This document shows, in pieces, positions 2,121 through 43,539 of a stretch of DNA of 46,719 bases. The stretch is from Candidatus Hatepunaea meridiana. Its GTDB lineage: Bacteria > Electryoneota > AABM5-125-24 > Hatepunaeales > Hatepunaeaceae. The notes beneath the pieces are model-generated. The model did not search any database and had not been told where the DNA came from. It saw nothing but the letters and a program-made list of their open reading frames with translations. Numbering within the stretch: the first letter of the stretch is position 1; each line of letters opens with the position of its first letter. Where the stretch lies: contig JAVCDD010000339.1 in assembly GCA_030765125.1 (NCBI GenBank), forward strand, positions 1-46,719, in the 5' to 3' direction. A program made the translations under genes and the position numbers.

Positions 2121-3310
2121 ACCTAACAGAAATCACAGCCATCTCCGCCTGCCGCACCCCTATGGGTTCCTTCGGTGGGACGTTGAAGAATATGGCTGCT
2201 TATGACATTGGCGCGGTGGCGGTTAGAGCCGCTATTGAACGCGCCGGGATTACCGGGGATCAAATTGATGACGTGATCCTCGGATCGTGCCGTCAAGCCG
2301 GGAATAAAGTCAACCCCGCACGAACCGCATCCGTCCGCGGCGGCGTGCCGAAGAGCGTCGCGGCTATCACCTTGAATATGGCCTGCCCGTCAGGGATGCG
2401 AGCTATCGCTATGGCGTCGCGGCAGATACGCCTCGGTGACGATGAAGTCGTCCTCGTCGGAGGCTTCGACTCGATGAGCACAATCCCCTTCCTGCTGAAG
2501 AACGCCCGCTGGCAGGGCTTCAAGATGGGTGATAAAACCCTCGAAGACGGCTGGTCGGATTCAATCGATCCCGTCGCCGGCGTCGGAATGGGTGGAACGG
2601 CTGAGAACCTGTACGATAAGTACAAGATTCCCCGCGAAGAACAGGATGCCTTCGCTGCCGATTCCCATGAGAAGGCTTTCAAAGCCTGGGAAAACGGCTA
2701 CTTCGACGCAGAAGTCGTACCGATAGAAGTGCCTCCCGCGCACAGGAAAGCTCAAGCTGTCACTTTCGCAAAAGATGAGACCTTCCTTTATCCGGTCAAC
2801 CTCGAAAAAATGGCAAAGCTGCCGACAGTCTTCCGCAAAGGCGGCACAGTTACAGCCGGAAACGCCTGCGGAATGTCCGACGGCGCTTGTGCACTGGTCA
2901 TCACATCCCGCGAAAAGGCACAGGAATTGGGAGCCAAGCCATTGTTTTCGCTCGTTGGTTACGCTTCTACCGCCGTCCCCAACGAAACTATGGGTGAGGG
3001 TCCCGGTTTCGTAATCCCGATGGCATTGAAAAACGCCGGTATGACGCTAGGTGATATGGACTTAATCGAGGTCAACGAAGCGTTCGCCATCCAGGTGCTC
3101 GCCAACGAAGCCGTCCTGAAATGGGATCGTTCCAAACTGAATGTCAACGGCGGCGCCATAGCGCTCGGTCACCCCACTGGTATATCCGGCGCCCGCATCG
3201 TAGTAACCCTGTACCACGCCCTTAAAACCTTCGACAAGGAATATGGCATTGCGGCTATTTGTGGAGGTGGGGGTGTTACTATGGGGATGGTTATTAAAAG
3301 AGAGAAGTAG
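2117..3310 (+). CDS. Acetyl-CoA C-acyltransferase (thiolase)
   Basis: This 397-residue protein has full thiolase length. The nucleophile is Cys90 in MACPSGM, with NEAFA near 320, GHPTG with His352, and the second catalytic Cys382 in CGGGG. It cleaves 3-oxoacyl-CoA with CoA, or condenses acyl-CoAs. In this cluster it most likely acts in the beta-oxidation steps after ring opening (pimelyl-CoA to acetyl-CoA units), which is inference from context. It opens the catabolic block and overlaps the upstream zinc-ribbon gene by 4 bp. A low-complexity repeat begins directly after its stop codon. Confidence 0.93.
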   Translation: MNLTEITAISACRTPMGSFGGTLKNMAAYDIGAVAVRAAIERAGITGDQIDDVILGSCRQAGNKVNPARTASVRGGVPKSVAAITLNMACPSGMRAIAMASRQIRLGDDEVVLVGGFDSMSTIPFLLKNARWQGFKMGDKTLEDGWSDSIDPVAGVGMGGTAENLYDKYKIPREEQDAFAADSHEKAFKAWENGYFDAEVVPIEVPPAHRKAQAVTFAKDETFLYPVNLEKMAKLPTVFRKGGTVTAGNACGMSDGACALVITSREKAQELGAKPLFSLVGYASTAVPNETMGEGPGFVIPMALKNAGMTLGDMDLIEVNEAFAIQVLANEAVLKWDRSKLNVNGGAIALGHPTGISGARIVVTLYHALKTFDKEYGIAAICGGGGVTMGMVIKREK

Positions 3311-3360
3311 TGTTGGGGTGTTGTAGTGTCGGGGTGTCGTGGTGTTGGAGTGTTGGGAAA
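3311..3360. repeat. Low-complexity GTGTTG-type repeat, left flank of a four-helix-bundle gene
   Basis: A G/T-rich run of imperfect GTGTTG, GTCGGG and GTGTCG words begins immediately after the thiolase stop. Its approximate reverse complement (CGACACCACTACACAACGACAC) lies just downstream of the next gene at 3753-3797. Together they bracket the 3377-3745 gene like inverted repeats. Confidence 0.55.
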
Positions 3361-3376
3361 CATAAGGAGTAGGGTT

Positions 3377-3745
3377 ATGTTGGTTACTCGGTTTGAGGAT
3401 TTGGAGGTTTGGCAGATTGCAAGGAATATTGCTAATTCCATCTATCAGTTGACCTATAATCAACAGTTTAGTAAAGATTTCGCTCTCAAGGATCAAGTCC
3501 GGCGTTCTGCAATTTCGATTATGGCAAATATAGCTGAAGGTTTCGGCAGTAAATCGAAGAATGAATTTATTCGATTCTTACGGTATTCAATCTCATCTGC
3601 TGCTGAAACTAAAAGCCATTTGTATTTAGCCATTGATTTGGATTACATCACTCAAGATCAATTCAATGAGTGCGCTGGTAATATCGAAACAGTAACTAAA
3701 AAAATCAAAGCCTTCATAAAACACATTAACAAAACAAAAGAATGA
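3377..3745 (+). CDS. Four-helix-bundle protein (23S rRNA intervening-sequence protein family)
   Basis: This 122-residue, all-helical protein has the family hallmarks FEDLEVWQIAR at the N-terminus, LKDQVRRSAISIMANIAEGF in the middle and SSAAETKSHLYLA later. The family includes proteins encoded in 23S rRNA intervening sequences and relatives of the Avd accessory protein of diversity-generating retroelements. Free-standing copies are common and their role is unclear. The start at 3377 has AAGGAG upstream. It is unrelated to aromatic degradation and appears to be an inserted cassette between thiolase and DUF2889. A frameshifted paralogue lies at 4494-4861. Confidence 0.85.
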   Translation: MLVTRFEDLEVWQIARNIANSIYQLTYNQQFSKDFALKDQVRRSAISIMANIAEGFGSKSKNEFIRFLRYSISSAAETKSHLYLAIDLDYITQDQFNECAGNIETVTKKIKAFIKHINKTKE

Positions 3746-3752
3746 ATCTCTA

Positions 3753-3797
3753 TACTACGACACCACTACACAACGACACTACGAAACTACGAAACTA
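3753..3797. repeat. Low-complexity ACGACAC repeat, right flank of a four-helix-bundle gene
   Basis: The words ACGACACCAC, TACACAACGACAC and TACGAAACTACG are an approximate reverse complement of the G/T-rich run at 3311-3360. The DUF2889 gene starts directly after it, with no clear Shine-Dalgarno sequence. Confidence 0.5.
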
Positions 3798-3799
3798 AA

Positions 3800-4255
3800 A
3801 TGGAAATCTACGAACGAAATATCAACGCCGCCGTATCGCGCGAAGGCAAGGATCTCATCAGAACTAAAGCTTCACTGCTGGATCTGAATCATAATATGCG
3901 GGTTGAGATACTGGTACGGGTGAGCGACAGGACTATCATAGACGCCCGCGCTGAAATGACCAAGACGCCCTTCAAAATCTGCGATCAGACAGCTCACTTC
4001 GTTGAGAACCTGATCGGGTTGAAGATCGAACGCGGGATTACGCGCAGAATTGCGGGACTTTTCGGCAGGTCGGAAGGCTGTACGCACCTGTTTGAACTCG
4101 CTGTAGAAGCGATTCGACTATCATCGAATGTTATCCTCGGCTTCGAAACCGGCGATGTAGAATGGCGGGAACGAAAGCTGTCGGATGAGGAATTTATCGA
4201 AAAGGCTAAAGGGTTTCTGGCTAATTCTTGTTTGCCGTTTAAGGTTGATTCATAA
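3800..4255 (+). CDS. DUF2889 family protein
   Basis: The 151-residue protein matches DUF2889 by its length and by the conserved centre reading roughly RIAGLFGRSEGCTHLFELA (residues 82-100), followed by a helical C-terminus. The family's molecular function is unknown to me. Its position between thiolase and the dienoyl-CoA hydratase suggests a role in the pathway, but this is inference. The start has no good ribosome binding site because repeat sequence abuts it. A TTGTGATG repeat begins at its stop codon. Confidence 0.8.
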   Translation: MEIYERNINAAVSREGKDLIRTKASLLDLNHNMRVEILVRVSDRTIIDARAEMTKTPFKICDQTAHFVENLIGLKIERGITRRIAGLFGRSEGCTHLFELAVEAIRLSSNVILGFETGDVEWRERKLSDEEFIEKAKGFLANSCLPFKVDS

Positions 4256-4485
4256 TGTTGTGATGTTGTGATGTTGTGATGTTGTAATGTTGTAATGTTG
4301 TGATTAAGAAGCAGTGATGTTGTGATTGTATAATCAGGATGTATTTGACTTATACAATTATTATCTTGACAGCACTGCATTACTAATAATGGATTCATTG
4401 AACAACATTACATATTCCAGATTATCAGAATTACAGCATCACAGAATTTAATAATTACAACATCACAACATCACAACATTAGAGG
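4254..4485. repeat. Low-complexity ATGTTGTG / CACAACAT repeats, left side of the broken four-helix-bundle gene
   Basis: ATGTTGTGATGTTGTG words run from the DUF2889 stop to about 4335. After an AT-rich segment with no gene, CATCACAAC words run from about 4430 to 4482. A further CACAACATTACAACATC run follows the broken gene at 4862-4900. The words on the two sides are reverse complements of each other. Confidence 0.6.
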
Positions 4486-4493
4486 GTAAAACC

Positions 4494-4861
4494 ATGTTGA
4501 TTACTAGCTTTGAGGATATTGAGGTCTGGCGAGTTTCGAGGGGATTAGTAAAGACTGTATATCAACTGACATACAATCAGTCGTTCCACAAAGATTATGC
4601 GTTGAAGGATCAAATCAGACGTTCAGCCATTTCGATTATGGCTAATATCGCTGAAGGTTTTGAAAGGAGATCGAATAAGGAGTTTATTCAATTTCTAAGA
4701 TATTCTGTTCATCCGCAGCAGAGACGAAAAGCCATCTTTATTTAGCTTTTGATTTAGATTACATTTCGCAAGATCAACTCGATAAATGCACAAACGAAAT
4801 CAATACTATCTCAAAACAAATCAAAGGATTTATCGGTTACCTAAGCAAAGTAAAAAAGTAG
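4494..4861 (+). pseudogene. Frameshifted four-helix-bundle protein gene
   Basis: This is a paralogue of the gene at 3377. The reading frame is intact through FLRYS (about 4710), then shifts: one base is missing compared with the intact copy near 4711-4714. In the next frame, homology continues with SSAAETKSHLYLAFDLDYISQ up to a stop at 4859-4861. The uncorrected ORF ends early at 4745 with an unrelated tail. Both copies share the same kind of flanking low-complexity repeats. A sequencing error could mimic the one-base loss. Confidence 0.8.
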
Positions 4862-4900
4862 TAATCACAACATTACAACATCACAACATTACAACATTTA
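4862..4900. repeat. Low-complexity ACAACAT repeat, right flank of the broken four-helix-bundle gene
   Basis: ATCACAACATTACAACATC words start at the stop codon of the frameshifted gene and end just before the ribosome binding region of the hydratase at 4914. They are the reverse complement of words at 4254-4310. Confidence 0.6.
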
Positions 4901-34403: not shown

Positions 34404-34868
34404 ATGAGGTCACTGACCTACAAATATCGCGGCGCTCGTGCAACAATAATTCTTCACGAACGAGAGATGCGGCGCTTCCTGAATATCTGGCGGGAAGCGA
34501 AGGGAAAAGGGATTATACTTCCTGTAACCGATGATTCTTCTTATAAATCACTTGAAGCATTATTGCATCATGTATTGAGGGCTTCGCGAGGATACATTAT
34601 CTGGATGTGCCAGGTATTAAACCTCCCCGATCTTGAAATACGTAAGACGCCGGGAACTGATACTATCGAAGCCGAAGCAGACGATTATCTCGAGTATCTA
34701 CTCGAGCGCTGGAAGTTCCCTTTGGTTGACATAACTGAGGAACAAGCCCACATTCCGACATACACCTCGCGCTGGAAGGTGGAATACTGCATAGACTCAA
34801 TGCTCGAACACGCGGTTATGCACCCGATACGGCATAGTTTTCAGTTGGAAGAGTTGATAGCCTCGTAG
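34404..34868 (+). CDS. DinB-like four-helix protein
   Basis: A 154-residue helical protein with LHHVLRASRGYIIWM near the middle and LEHAVMHPIRHSFQLEEL near the end. The spaced histidines (HH, then HxxxHxxxH) fit the metal-binding triad of the DinB/YfiT superfamily. The function in this context is unknown. AGAGGAG precedes the ATG. The stop TAG (34866-34868) is the TAG of a REP GTAG foot. Confidence 0.7.
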   Translation: MRSLTYKYRGARATIILHEREMRRFLNIWREAKGKGIILPVTDDSSYKSLEALLHHVLRASRGYIIWMCQVLNLPDLEIRKTPGTDTIEAEADDYLEYLLERWKFPLVDITEEQAHIPTYTSRWKVEYCIDSMLEHAVMHPIRHSFQLEELIAS

Positions 34869-35149
34869 CCCGGCTTCTCCGAAGCCGGGGAAGGAGCCGC
34901 AGGTCAATCGACAATGATTCCCGGCTGGGATAATAACAATAATTCCCGGCTGGGATAATAACAATAATTCCCGGCTGGGATAATTAACAATAATTCCCGG
35001 CTGGGATAATTAACAATAATTCCCGGCTGGGATAATTAACAATAATTCCCGGCTGGGATAATTAACAATAATTCCCGGCTGGGATAATTAACGATAATCC
35101 CCGGCTGGGATAATAACAATGATCCCCGGCTTCGGAGAAGCCGGGCTAC
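34865..35149. repeat. REP pair of the GTAGCCCGGCTTC family with eight ~25-bp tandem units (block A)
   Basis: GTAG (34865-34868) plus hairpin CCCGGCTTC/GAAGCCGGG opens the block, and the inverted copy ending in CTAC (35146-35149) closes it. Between them are eight tandem units of 25-26 bp with core CCCGGCTGGG and AATAATT spacers. The units look derived from half of the REP. The block ends 33 bp before the RAYT start. Confidence 0.88.
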
Positions 35150-35181
35150 GTGTTCTGAAACCAAATAATTCTAATTCTACT

Positions 35182-35874
35182 ATGGTAAGATATAGACGTG
35201 CAAAAGTCGACAATCCTGAAGCTTTATATTTCATTACTTATGTCACCAAAGATCGAAAGCATTATTTCCGACAGAGTGATGATTTTGTAAAGCAATGGAA
35301 ATCATGGATAAATATTGCCAAGGATCATAATGCGGAGTTGTTTGCCTTTGTTTTTATCAGTGAACATAGTCATATTATCCTTAAGCAAGGTGATACATCC
35401 TTTTCCAAATTGATGCATCTTTTTAAAAGGCGAATGAATTATCTTTTCTTTCCACGTAACCCGGTTTTCCCGAATGACATAACACGTAGCCCGGCTTCTC
35501 CGAAGCCGGGGATTTTGGGAGGGAATGACAAGAAGCCGGGATTGTCGGTGTTGAATGACAAGAAGCCGGGATTGTCGGTGTTGAATGACAAGGATTCCCC
35601 GGTTTCGGAGAAACCGGGCTACGTGAAGCCAAGCAAAATATCACAACGAAAAACCACATTATGGCAAAGCAGGTTTTGGGAGCATATGATACGTGACGAT
35701 GGAGACTTACGAAGACATGTTGAATATATTCACTTCAATCCGGTAAAACACGGATTAGTTAAAAGCCCATGGGATTATCCTTATTCAAGCTTCAAATTAT
35801 TTGTTGAACAAGGTCTCTATACTGCCGATTGGGCAAGTGATATCGAATTAGATTTAGCTGGTGAACCATTATAA
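35182..35874 (+). CDS. REP-associated tyrosine transposase with an internal REP insertion
   Basis: A ~230-residue Y1/IS200-like transposase (RAYT). The metal motif is EHSHIILK (HxH), and the tyrosine region is HVEYIHFNPVKHGLV preceded by WQSRFWEHMIRDD. Residues about 93-153 are not conserved: they are encoded by a REP pair plus two 30-bp tandem units (35486-35622) and read in frame as RSPASPKPG, NDKKPGLSVL and VSEKPGYV. The start at 35182 is chosen to exclude repeat-encoded residues. Whether the interrupted protein is active is unknown. Confidence 0.85.
   Translation: MVRYRRAKVDNPEALYFITYVTKDRKHYFRQSDDFVKQWKSWINIAKDHNAELFAFVFISEHSHIILKQGDTSFSKLMHLFKRRMNYLFFPRNPVFPNDITRSPASPKPGILGGNDKKPGLSVLNDKKPGLSVLNDKDSPVSEKPGYVKPSKISQRKTTLWQSRFWEHMIRDDGDLRRHVEYIHFNPVKHGLVKSPWDYPYSSFKLFVEQGLYTADWASDIELDLAGEPL
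35486..35622. repeat. REP pair inside the RAYT gene (block B)
   Basis: GTAG (35486-35489) with CCCGGCTTC/GAAGCCGGG at the left, and the inverted form CCCCGGTTTCGGAG...CTAC (to 35622) at the right. Between are units of GAATGACAAGAAGCCGGGAT. It lies wholly within the coding frame without creating a stop, because the frame reads CGT-AGC across GTAG. Confidence 0.88.
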
Positions 35875-36282
35875 ATTACCGCTTCGTATGCTTATAAAAC
35901 GGACAATGCCCAACTTCGTAACCCGGCTTTGTAGCCCGGCTTCGTAGCCCGGCTTCTCCGAAGCCGGGGATGTTTGTTAAACCGACAATGCCCTGACACT
36001 TGTTAAACCAACAACATGGGGAATGCTTGTTAAACCAACAACATGGGGGTTACTTGTTAAACCAACAACGATCAGGGGGTTACTTGTTAAACCAACAACA
36101 CGGGGGTTACTTGTTAAACCAACAACATGGGGGTTACTTGTTAAACCAACAACATGGGGATTACTTGTTAAACCAACAACATGGGGGTTACTTGTTAAAC
36201 CAACAACGATCAGTGGAATGCTTGTTAAACCGACACCCCCCGGCTTCGGAGAAGCCGGGCTACGAGTGAATACGGAGAAAAA
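35875..36282. repeat. REP pair with about ten 27-bp tandem units (block C)
   Basis: No gene is supported. Degenerate GTAACCCGG and GTAGCCCGG feet (35918, 35931) precede a full REP (35944-35969). About ten units of CTTGTTAAACCAACAACATG plus GGGGTTA follow (about 35970-36230), two of them with an extra GATCAG. The inverted REP ends in CTAC at 36260-36263. Long ORFs across it on both strands merely translate the repeat. Confidence 0.85.
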
Positions 36283-43071: not shown

Positions 43072-43539
43072 ATGATTACTCAAAGGCTTAAGATACGTCA
43101 GAACAATCTACCTCATTGGCAACAGGGTGGTTGTGTATATTATATCACTTTCCGTTCAATTCGGGAGAGATTGACAGAAAGTGCATTGGATAGAATTAAG
43201 GATGTTATCCTTCACGATCATAATCGCAAGTATAGACTATACATAACGGTTATAATGCCGGATCATGTTCATATAATACTACAACCTCTTGAAATGAAAA
43301 CTGGTGTGTGGTTTGATTTAGCAGGCATTCTAAAAACAATCAAAGGAGTTAGCGCCAGACGGATTAATGAGGTTTTAAGAACCCGCGGAACGGTTTGGCA
43401 AAAGGAAAGTTATGACAGGATTATTCGAAATGATGAAGAATTAATTGAGAAATGGAATTATATGCTTAGAAACCCGGAAGATGAGGGTCTTATTAAACCA
43501 AGTGAAGAGTATAAATTCATTATTATACCTCCCAATTAA
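43072..43539 (+). CDS. REP-associated tyrosine transposase (RAYT)
   Basis: A 155-residue Y1/IS200-like transposase. PDHVHIILQP gives the HxH metal motif; the helix with the likely catalytic tyrosine is EKWNYMLRNP, and VWQKESYDRIIRND is the typical preceding motif. The longer frame from 42949 translates the repeat, so the ATG at 43072 is chosen. It is bordered by two inverted 117-bp REP-pair elements and probably recognises their GTAG-hairpin ends, as RAYTs do for REPs in enterobacteria. Confidence 0.9.
   Translation: MITQRLKIRQNNLPHWQQGGCVYYITFRSIRERLTESALDRIKDVILHDHNRKYRLYITVIMPDHVHIILQPLEMKTGVWFDLAGILKTIKGVSARRINEVLRTRGTVWQKESYDRIIRNDEELIEKWNYMLRNPEDEGLIKPSEEYKFIIIPPN

Follow-up and report, generated by a model that had tools for sequence, protein, structure and literature searches.

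A REP block of presumed cognate family carried in frame by a RAYT gene of Candidatus Hatepunaea meridiana

Read from its sequence, the RAYT (REP-associated tyrosine transposase) gene reported here is a transposase gene into which a REP dimer block of its presumed cognate family is inserted in frame. The most probable explanation is a tolerated self-insertion, with the REP block keeping the frame and surviving in one permissive loop of the protein. The gene lies within the window, the whole stretch of 46,719 nucleotides that was analyzed, and the features on which the argument relies are the following:

34864..35150, no strand assigned: block A, made of a REP, a 26-bp tandem spacer and an inverted REP; the first TAG of the block is the stop of the upstream ORF 34404-34868
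35182..35874, plus strand: RAYT of 230 aa, with HSH at residues 62-64 and Tyr 182, identified by NF047646, Pfam Y1_Tnp and 4er8, by sequence and fold
35454..35480, plus strand: degenerate REP (CGTAACCCGGTTTTCCCG...) of repeat family D5 at the left edge of the insert, opposite the REP of the G008 relic when read by eye
35455..35646, plus strand: insert of 64 codons (residues 92-155) in the alpha3-beta4 loop, missing from uninterrupted homologues, pLDDT mostly <50
35486..35510, plus strand: sense REP of block B, an exact copy, read RSPASPKPG
35523..35592, plus strand: spacer of block B, 2.3 copies of 30-bp tandem units
35598..35622, minus strand: inverted REP of block B, a TTTC variant, read SPVSEKPGYV
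35915..36264, no strand assigned: block C, just downstream of the RAYT, with two or three REP heads, a 27-bp tandem spacer and an inverted REP

The transposase and its REP family

The ORF at 35182-35874 matches the NCBIfam model NF047646 (REP_Tyr_transpos) with 117.5 bits (cut-off, 80), the match being split into two stretches, and is also matched by Pfam Y1_Tnp. A profile built from 51 relatives finds E. coli TnpAREP (PDB code: 4er8) at 3.7e-63, and the same entry is the top match in a structure search with the predicted RAYT structure. H62, H64, and Y182, invariant in 51 of 51 aligned relatives, are all present in the window RAYT, whose set of catalytic motifs is complete and whose C-terminal part is preserved, free of stops and frameshifts. 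The insert-bearing enzyme may be active. Also, a second, distant RAYT-like gene is found in the window at 43168-43407 (L003), scoring under the NF047646 cut-off.

REPs in inverted orientation are located on both sides of the gene (blocks A and C), which is the arrangement by which RAYTs are recognized, and the REP core matches in both blocks, confirming the initial annotation of a transposase between REP blocks of one family. Blocks A, B, and C follow a common plan of REP, tandem spacer, and inverted REP, their REPs being paired as inverted dimers of the BIME or REPIN type and their spacer units being different. The core GTAGCCCGGCTTC occurs eight times in the window at ≤1 mismatch, against 0.02 in shuffles, and seven of these occurrences fall in the three blocks around and inside the RAYT. 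In the whole genome, the 25-base REP has 68 copies at ≤3 mismatches (control pattern, 0), with C as the base preceding GTAG in 56 of them. With a GTAG head followed by a GC-rich palindrome and many genomic copies, the repeats constitute a GTAG REP family. By association, this family is likely the cognate of the window RAYT: the RAYT from G001, uninterrupted though frameshifted near its start, has the window's REP type on both flanks, and GTAGCCCGG-type REPs adjoin those of G016 and G029. The RAYT itself may have made the insertion.

At three places (window 34865, window 39632, and L010:1501), the TAG of a REP is the stop codon of an upstream ORF, considering only upstream open frames of ≥150 codons. 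Octamer tandem arrays (ACTACGAC, ATGTTGTG, and similar), some of them open in frame, are present at window 3310-4898 and on another contig (L009:1-258).

The insert, its frame, and its predicted structure

Whole-genome searches indicate that query residues 1-91 and 155-227 adjoin in relatives such as those of G016 and G029, and alignment with uninterrupted homologues sets the edges of the insert at residues 92-155 (64 codons), after the HxH (H62, H64) and before the Tyr motif (Y182). Thus, the alignment proposed beforehand as a check gave clean edges, and coordinates and alignment agree with the claim that block B of the same family sits between the two motifs. The frame stays open, as had been annotated, since GTAG is read as CGT-AGC, in the context (ACA) CGT-AGC-CCG, from which the translation RSPASPKPG is obtained; read from the sequence, the alternative open frame of the sense REP gives VARLLRSR, and the third frame is a stop. 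The evidence supports an insertion of the presumed REP of this gene, and the observation named beforehand as its refutation did not turn up, as no homologue examined carries the 64-residue segment without REPs. A conserved extra domain was considered and discarded because the segment is made of repeats and is missing from the uninterrupted homologues. The openness of the insert is not taken as proof of selection because block C is likewise open in two reading frames.

An AlphaFold2 prediction, obtained from the window protein aligned with genome-collection proteins, gives the core pLDDT values of 93-98, whereas most of residues 97-145 stay under 50, with the insert positioned between helix 74-89 and strand 166-170. 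Modeling, the second check that had been suggested, hence yields a low-confidence surface loop within a confident core. According to this model, the insert is predicted to be a surface loop, yet near the DNA-binding face, its Pro/Ser/Gly-rich peptide is probably disordered, and the HUH-Tyr core would stay folded despite it. REP contacts in E. coli TnpAREP involve helix alpha3 and the surroundings of beta4 (PMC8266576), and the profile alignment indicates that the alpha3-beta4 loop is minimal in this enzyme. The insert-bearing loop would be neutral; against this, by analogy with the E. coli enzyme, a loop between two REP-contacting regions may not be neutral, and the very stable mRNA fold of the block could lower expression.

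The RAYT of G008, which belongs to another genus of the same family, is 59% identical over the first part and reads KRRMNYGFQ-RSPASPMPG, having a REP in the same orientation and frame as the window and about one codon away; by eye, this REP lies opposite the degenerate REP, whereas the automatic DNA alignment paired it with the intact REP instead. The Tyr region is lost in this copy, which is then a relic. The values of dN (0.24) and dS (about 1.7, near saturation) for the first 89 codons indicate that the divergence took place mostly under constraint. From the sequences, an old insertion shared by G008 and the window is plausible, the possible alternative being independent insertions in one permissive loop. 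In the gene neighborhood, only the RAYT and generic repeat proteins match, giving no synteny support for orthology.

The G008 copy, with a REP near the same site and its Tyr region lost, could represent the later stage of a process in which the insert killed the RAYT, the frame of the window copy being open by luck or recency. In line with this, the tandem units are identical within block B, and therefore part of the block is recent; moreover, such repeats are often open by chance, as in block C. Nonetheless, inactivation seems unlikely to us, given the intact motifs and C-terminal part of the window copy, its predicted folded core, and the comparable insert tolerated by MurG (see below). Even less credible is an assembly artefact, in which repeats would have made the assembler join parts of different loci. 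The genome is a draft in 382 contigs with many REPs, and the block contains tandem repeats, but the genome contains no second close RAYT from which the other half could derive, the frame is kept, a REP occupies almost the same codon position in the separate assembly of G008, and five other RAYTs show the same arrangement.

In-frame palindromes in other genes and in other RAYTs

The window case had been treated as singular, which does not hold: six such genes, this one included, were found in the genome, and the RAYTs of this kind likewise number at least six. The five other in-frame genes and the other RAYTs with their own palindrome rule out uniqueness. Requiring that a host ORF extends ≥60 codons on both sides of the REP, 10 of the 68 REPs sit in six genuine-looking ORFs, namely the window RAYT and five other genes; one further hit, to an ORF opposite a PfkB gene, was judged spurious and discounted. 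One of these genes encodes a dnaE-type polymerase (contig C115), being a second copy, with the main copy on C322 scoring 1285 bits. Another is murG on C308, the only murG found, where the profile match continues from position 234 to position 234 across a 141-base gap. The remaining three encode large secreted-type proteins, the ends of which are of the secretion-tail or FlgD-like type. Walled bacteria cannot do without MurG. Since its only copy found carries a REP, an insert of this kind need not inactivate the host protein.

Regarding the frames, five of five sense copies in genes are read in the SPxSPKPG frame, and those in antisense give PGFGEAGL (3) or PASEKPGY (2), never RLRRSRA. The bias of the sense copies has a probability of ~0.03 if both open frames are equally likely, with small numbers, and this frame usage would fit the survival of flexible, soluble peptides. 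Together, murG and the other genes with in-frame REPs show that palindromic repeats can give rise to new stretches of protein, which are probably disordered. The REP-carrying murG (G000 C308, L168:186-2534) also contains, in frame (NHGGLTA), two copies and a partial third of a second palindromic family, GCTGTCAACCACGGCGGGTTGACAGC, which has 101 genomic copies at ≤3 mismatches (control, 0).

Among 94 RAYTs, the HxH and WQ motifs are 33-55 apart in all but four, in which the distance is 58, 62, 77, and 99, and these four longest loops are exactly the four that share a palindrome with the DNA flanking the gene. Besides the window, they correspond to RAYTs from Phycisphaerae (L058), Nitrospirales (L081), and Betaproteobacteria (L087), and in these three the shared palindrome is an antisense GTAG-tagged REP that also has copies immediately before and after the gene. 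In the nearest uninterrupted relatives of the loop cases, the palindrome is absent. The alpha3-beta4 loop varies naturally in length, and most of the 94 RAYTs lack a flanking REP there. A wider set of 179 RAYTs, 40 of which were added later and partly chosen for long or partial profile matches, adds two cases in the same loop from the window's phylum, L237 (three in-frame copies) and L258, both with palindromes that lack GTAG. Altogether, a single loop, accounting for about one sixth of the domain, holds six of the seven palindromic RAYT cases, and chance sharing of ≥17 bases, estimated from sequence lengths, would be rare, amounting to about 0.03 over the whole set. Internal hairpins shared with the flanks are found in 9 of 179 RAYT domains and in 28 of 509 neighboring stop-to-stop ORFs, a crude control usable as a rough guide, since it includes many spurious ORFs and counts the window and L124 RAYT ORFs again. 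Without enrichment over the neighboring ORFs, specific targeting of RAYT genes is unsupported, and therefore the concentration in one loop is best explained by protein tolerance.

Other palindromes and repeats were observed at these loci. In L237 (1093-1947, the RAYT ORF of G038), the loop copies are GHVKNEDTCRR, HVRNEDTCRR, and one degenerate copy, and further in-frame copies of the palindrome lie close to where the open frame begins. In L243 (1224-1949), the palindrome CAGGTCTCCTGACCTG is in frame in a different RAYT loop, with a related copy near the N terminus. In L124, L079, L067, and L257, the DNA next to the gene contains repeats of parts of the rayt gene end, similar to BIME-captured ends (PMC2817692). 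L243, for its different loop, and L124 and L079, for their duplicated rayt segments, were left out of the loop-case count. Viral contigs yielded one locus and plasmids 23 records, and a phylum-wide search from G186 covered 3 genomes.

The recurrence of a RAYT's own REP in the same loop across several phyla, together with the position of the insert between the REP-contacting alpha3 and beta4 and an RNA fold of the block of -84.5 kcal/mol (z -4.8), could be taken as a sign of regulation. An internal REP hairpin, in mRNA or ssDNA, or a loop near the DNA-binding face would limit the expression or activity of the RAYT and provide feedback on REP spread. This appears improbable, given that genes without such a role carry the same inserts, RAYTs are not enriched for internal repeats, most RAYTs have no insert, and any inverted REP pair is expected to fold stably. 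With similarly little probability, RAYTs of several phyla would have repeatedly gained their own REP in the loop for self-limiting REP spread, the gene of the enzyme being a target in its own right and the hairpin damping expression or activity. Hence, from the three possibilities considered in the initial annotation (a tolerated loop, a regulated enzyme, or an inactivated one), the tolerated loop is best supported, and inactivation is unsupported for the window copy. The tolerated loop is favored because the predicted disordered insert sits in a confident core, the motifs are kept, the loop is variable in length, and murG and other genes have similar inserts. Under tolerance, REPs would arise both close to the RAYT and at other places in the genome, those breaking the frame or the core would be lost, leaving survivors in the alpha3-beta4 loop, and the insert would be retained as a tolerated passenger, not as a switch.

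Comparison with known systems

RAYTs are regarded as domesticated enzymes that maintain REPs in genomes, yet REP movement is poorly understood. Having a REP in the enzyme's own conserved gene, in one loop and in unrelated lineages, provides natural insertions in which the states before and after can be compared; moreover, the tolerance of this loop to long inserts, as suggested here, bears on how the enzyme recognizes REPs.

The window RAYT shares with TnpAREP (NF047646; PDB code: 4er8) the HUH and Tyr motifs, the fold, and the flanking GTAG REPs and differs from it in that its alpha3-beta4 loop contains a 64-residue insert formed by its own REP block. Intragenic REPs are already known, whereas REPs inside the coding region of a RAYT itself had no description in the literature searched, which consisted mostly of journals accessible without subscription. 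For example, the main text of Di Nocera et al. 2013 (PMC3733652) describes GTAG and CGTC REPs as in-frame palindromes in protein genes, as dimers or clusters, supplying stop codons, and with DNA polymerase genes among their targets. The genome studied here resembles that account in its in-frame dimers, its polymerase gene, and its REP stop codons. The RPEs of Rickettsia are also palindromes inserted in frame in protein genes. In contrast to the RPEs and to the REPs of PMC3733652, whose main text reports no RAYT target, the host gene here is the RAYT itself, and the same loop is involved in several lineages.

With REPINs (Bertels and Rainey 2011, PMC3116915), in the consulted text of which no intragenic cases were found, the window blocks have in common the inverted REP pair as a unit, but their spacers hold tandem arrays. 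Finally, BIMEs in which the 3' end of rayt has been captured (Nunvar et al. 2010, PMC2817692) are, like the present case, an instance of the REP machinery acting on rayt, and L124 and L079 resemble such duplications. However, in those BIMEs the rayt end joins the BIME, whereas here the REP block lies in frame inside the coding region.
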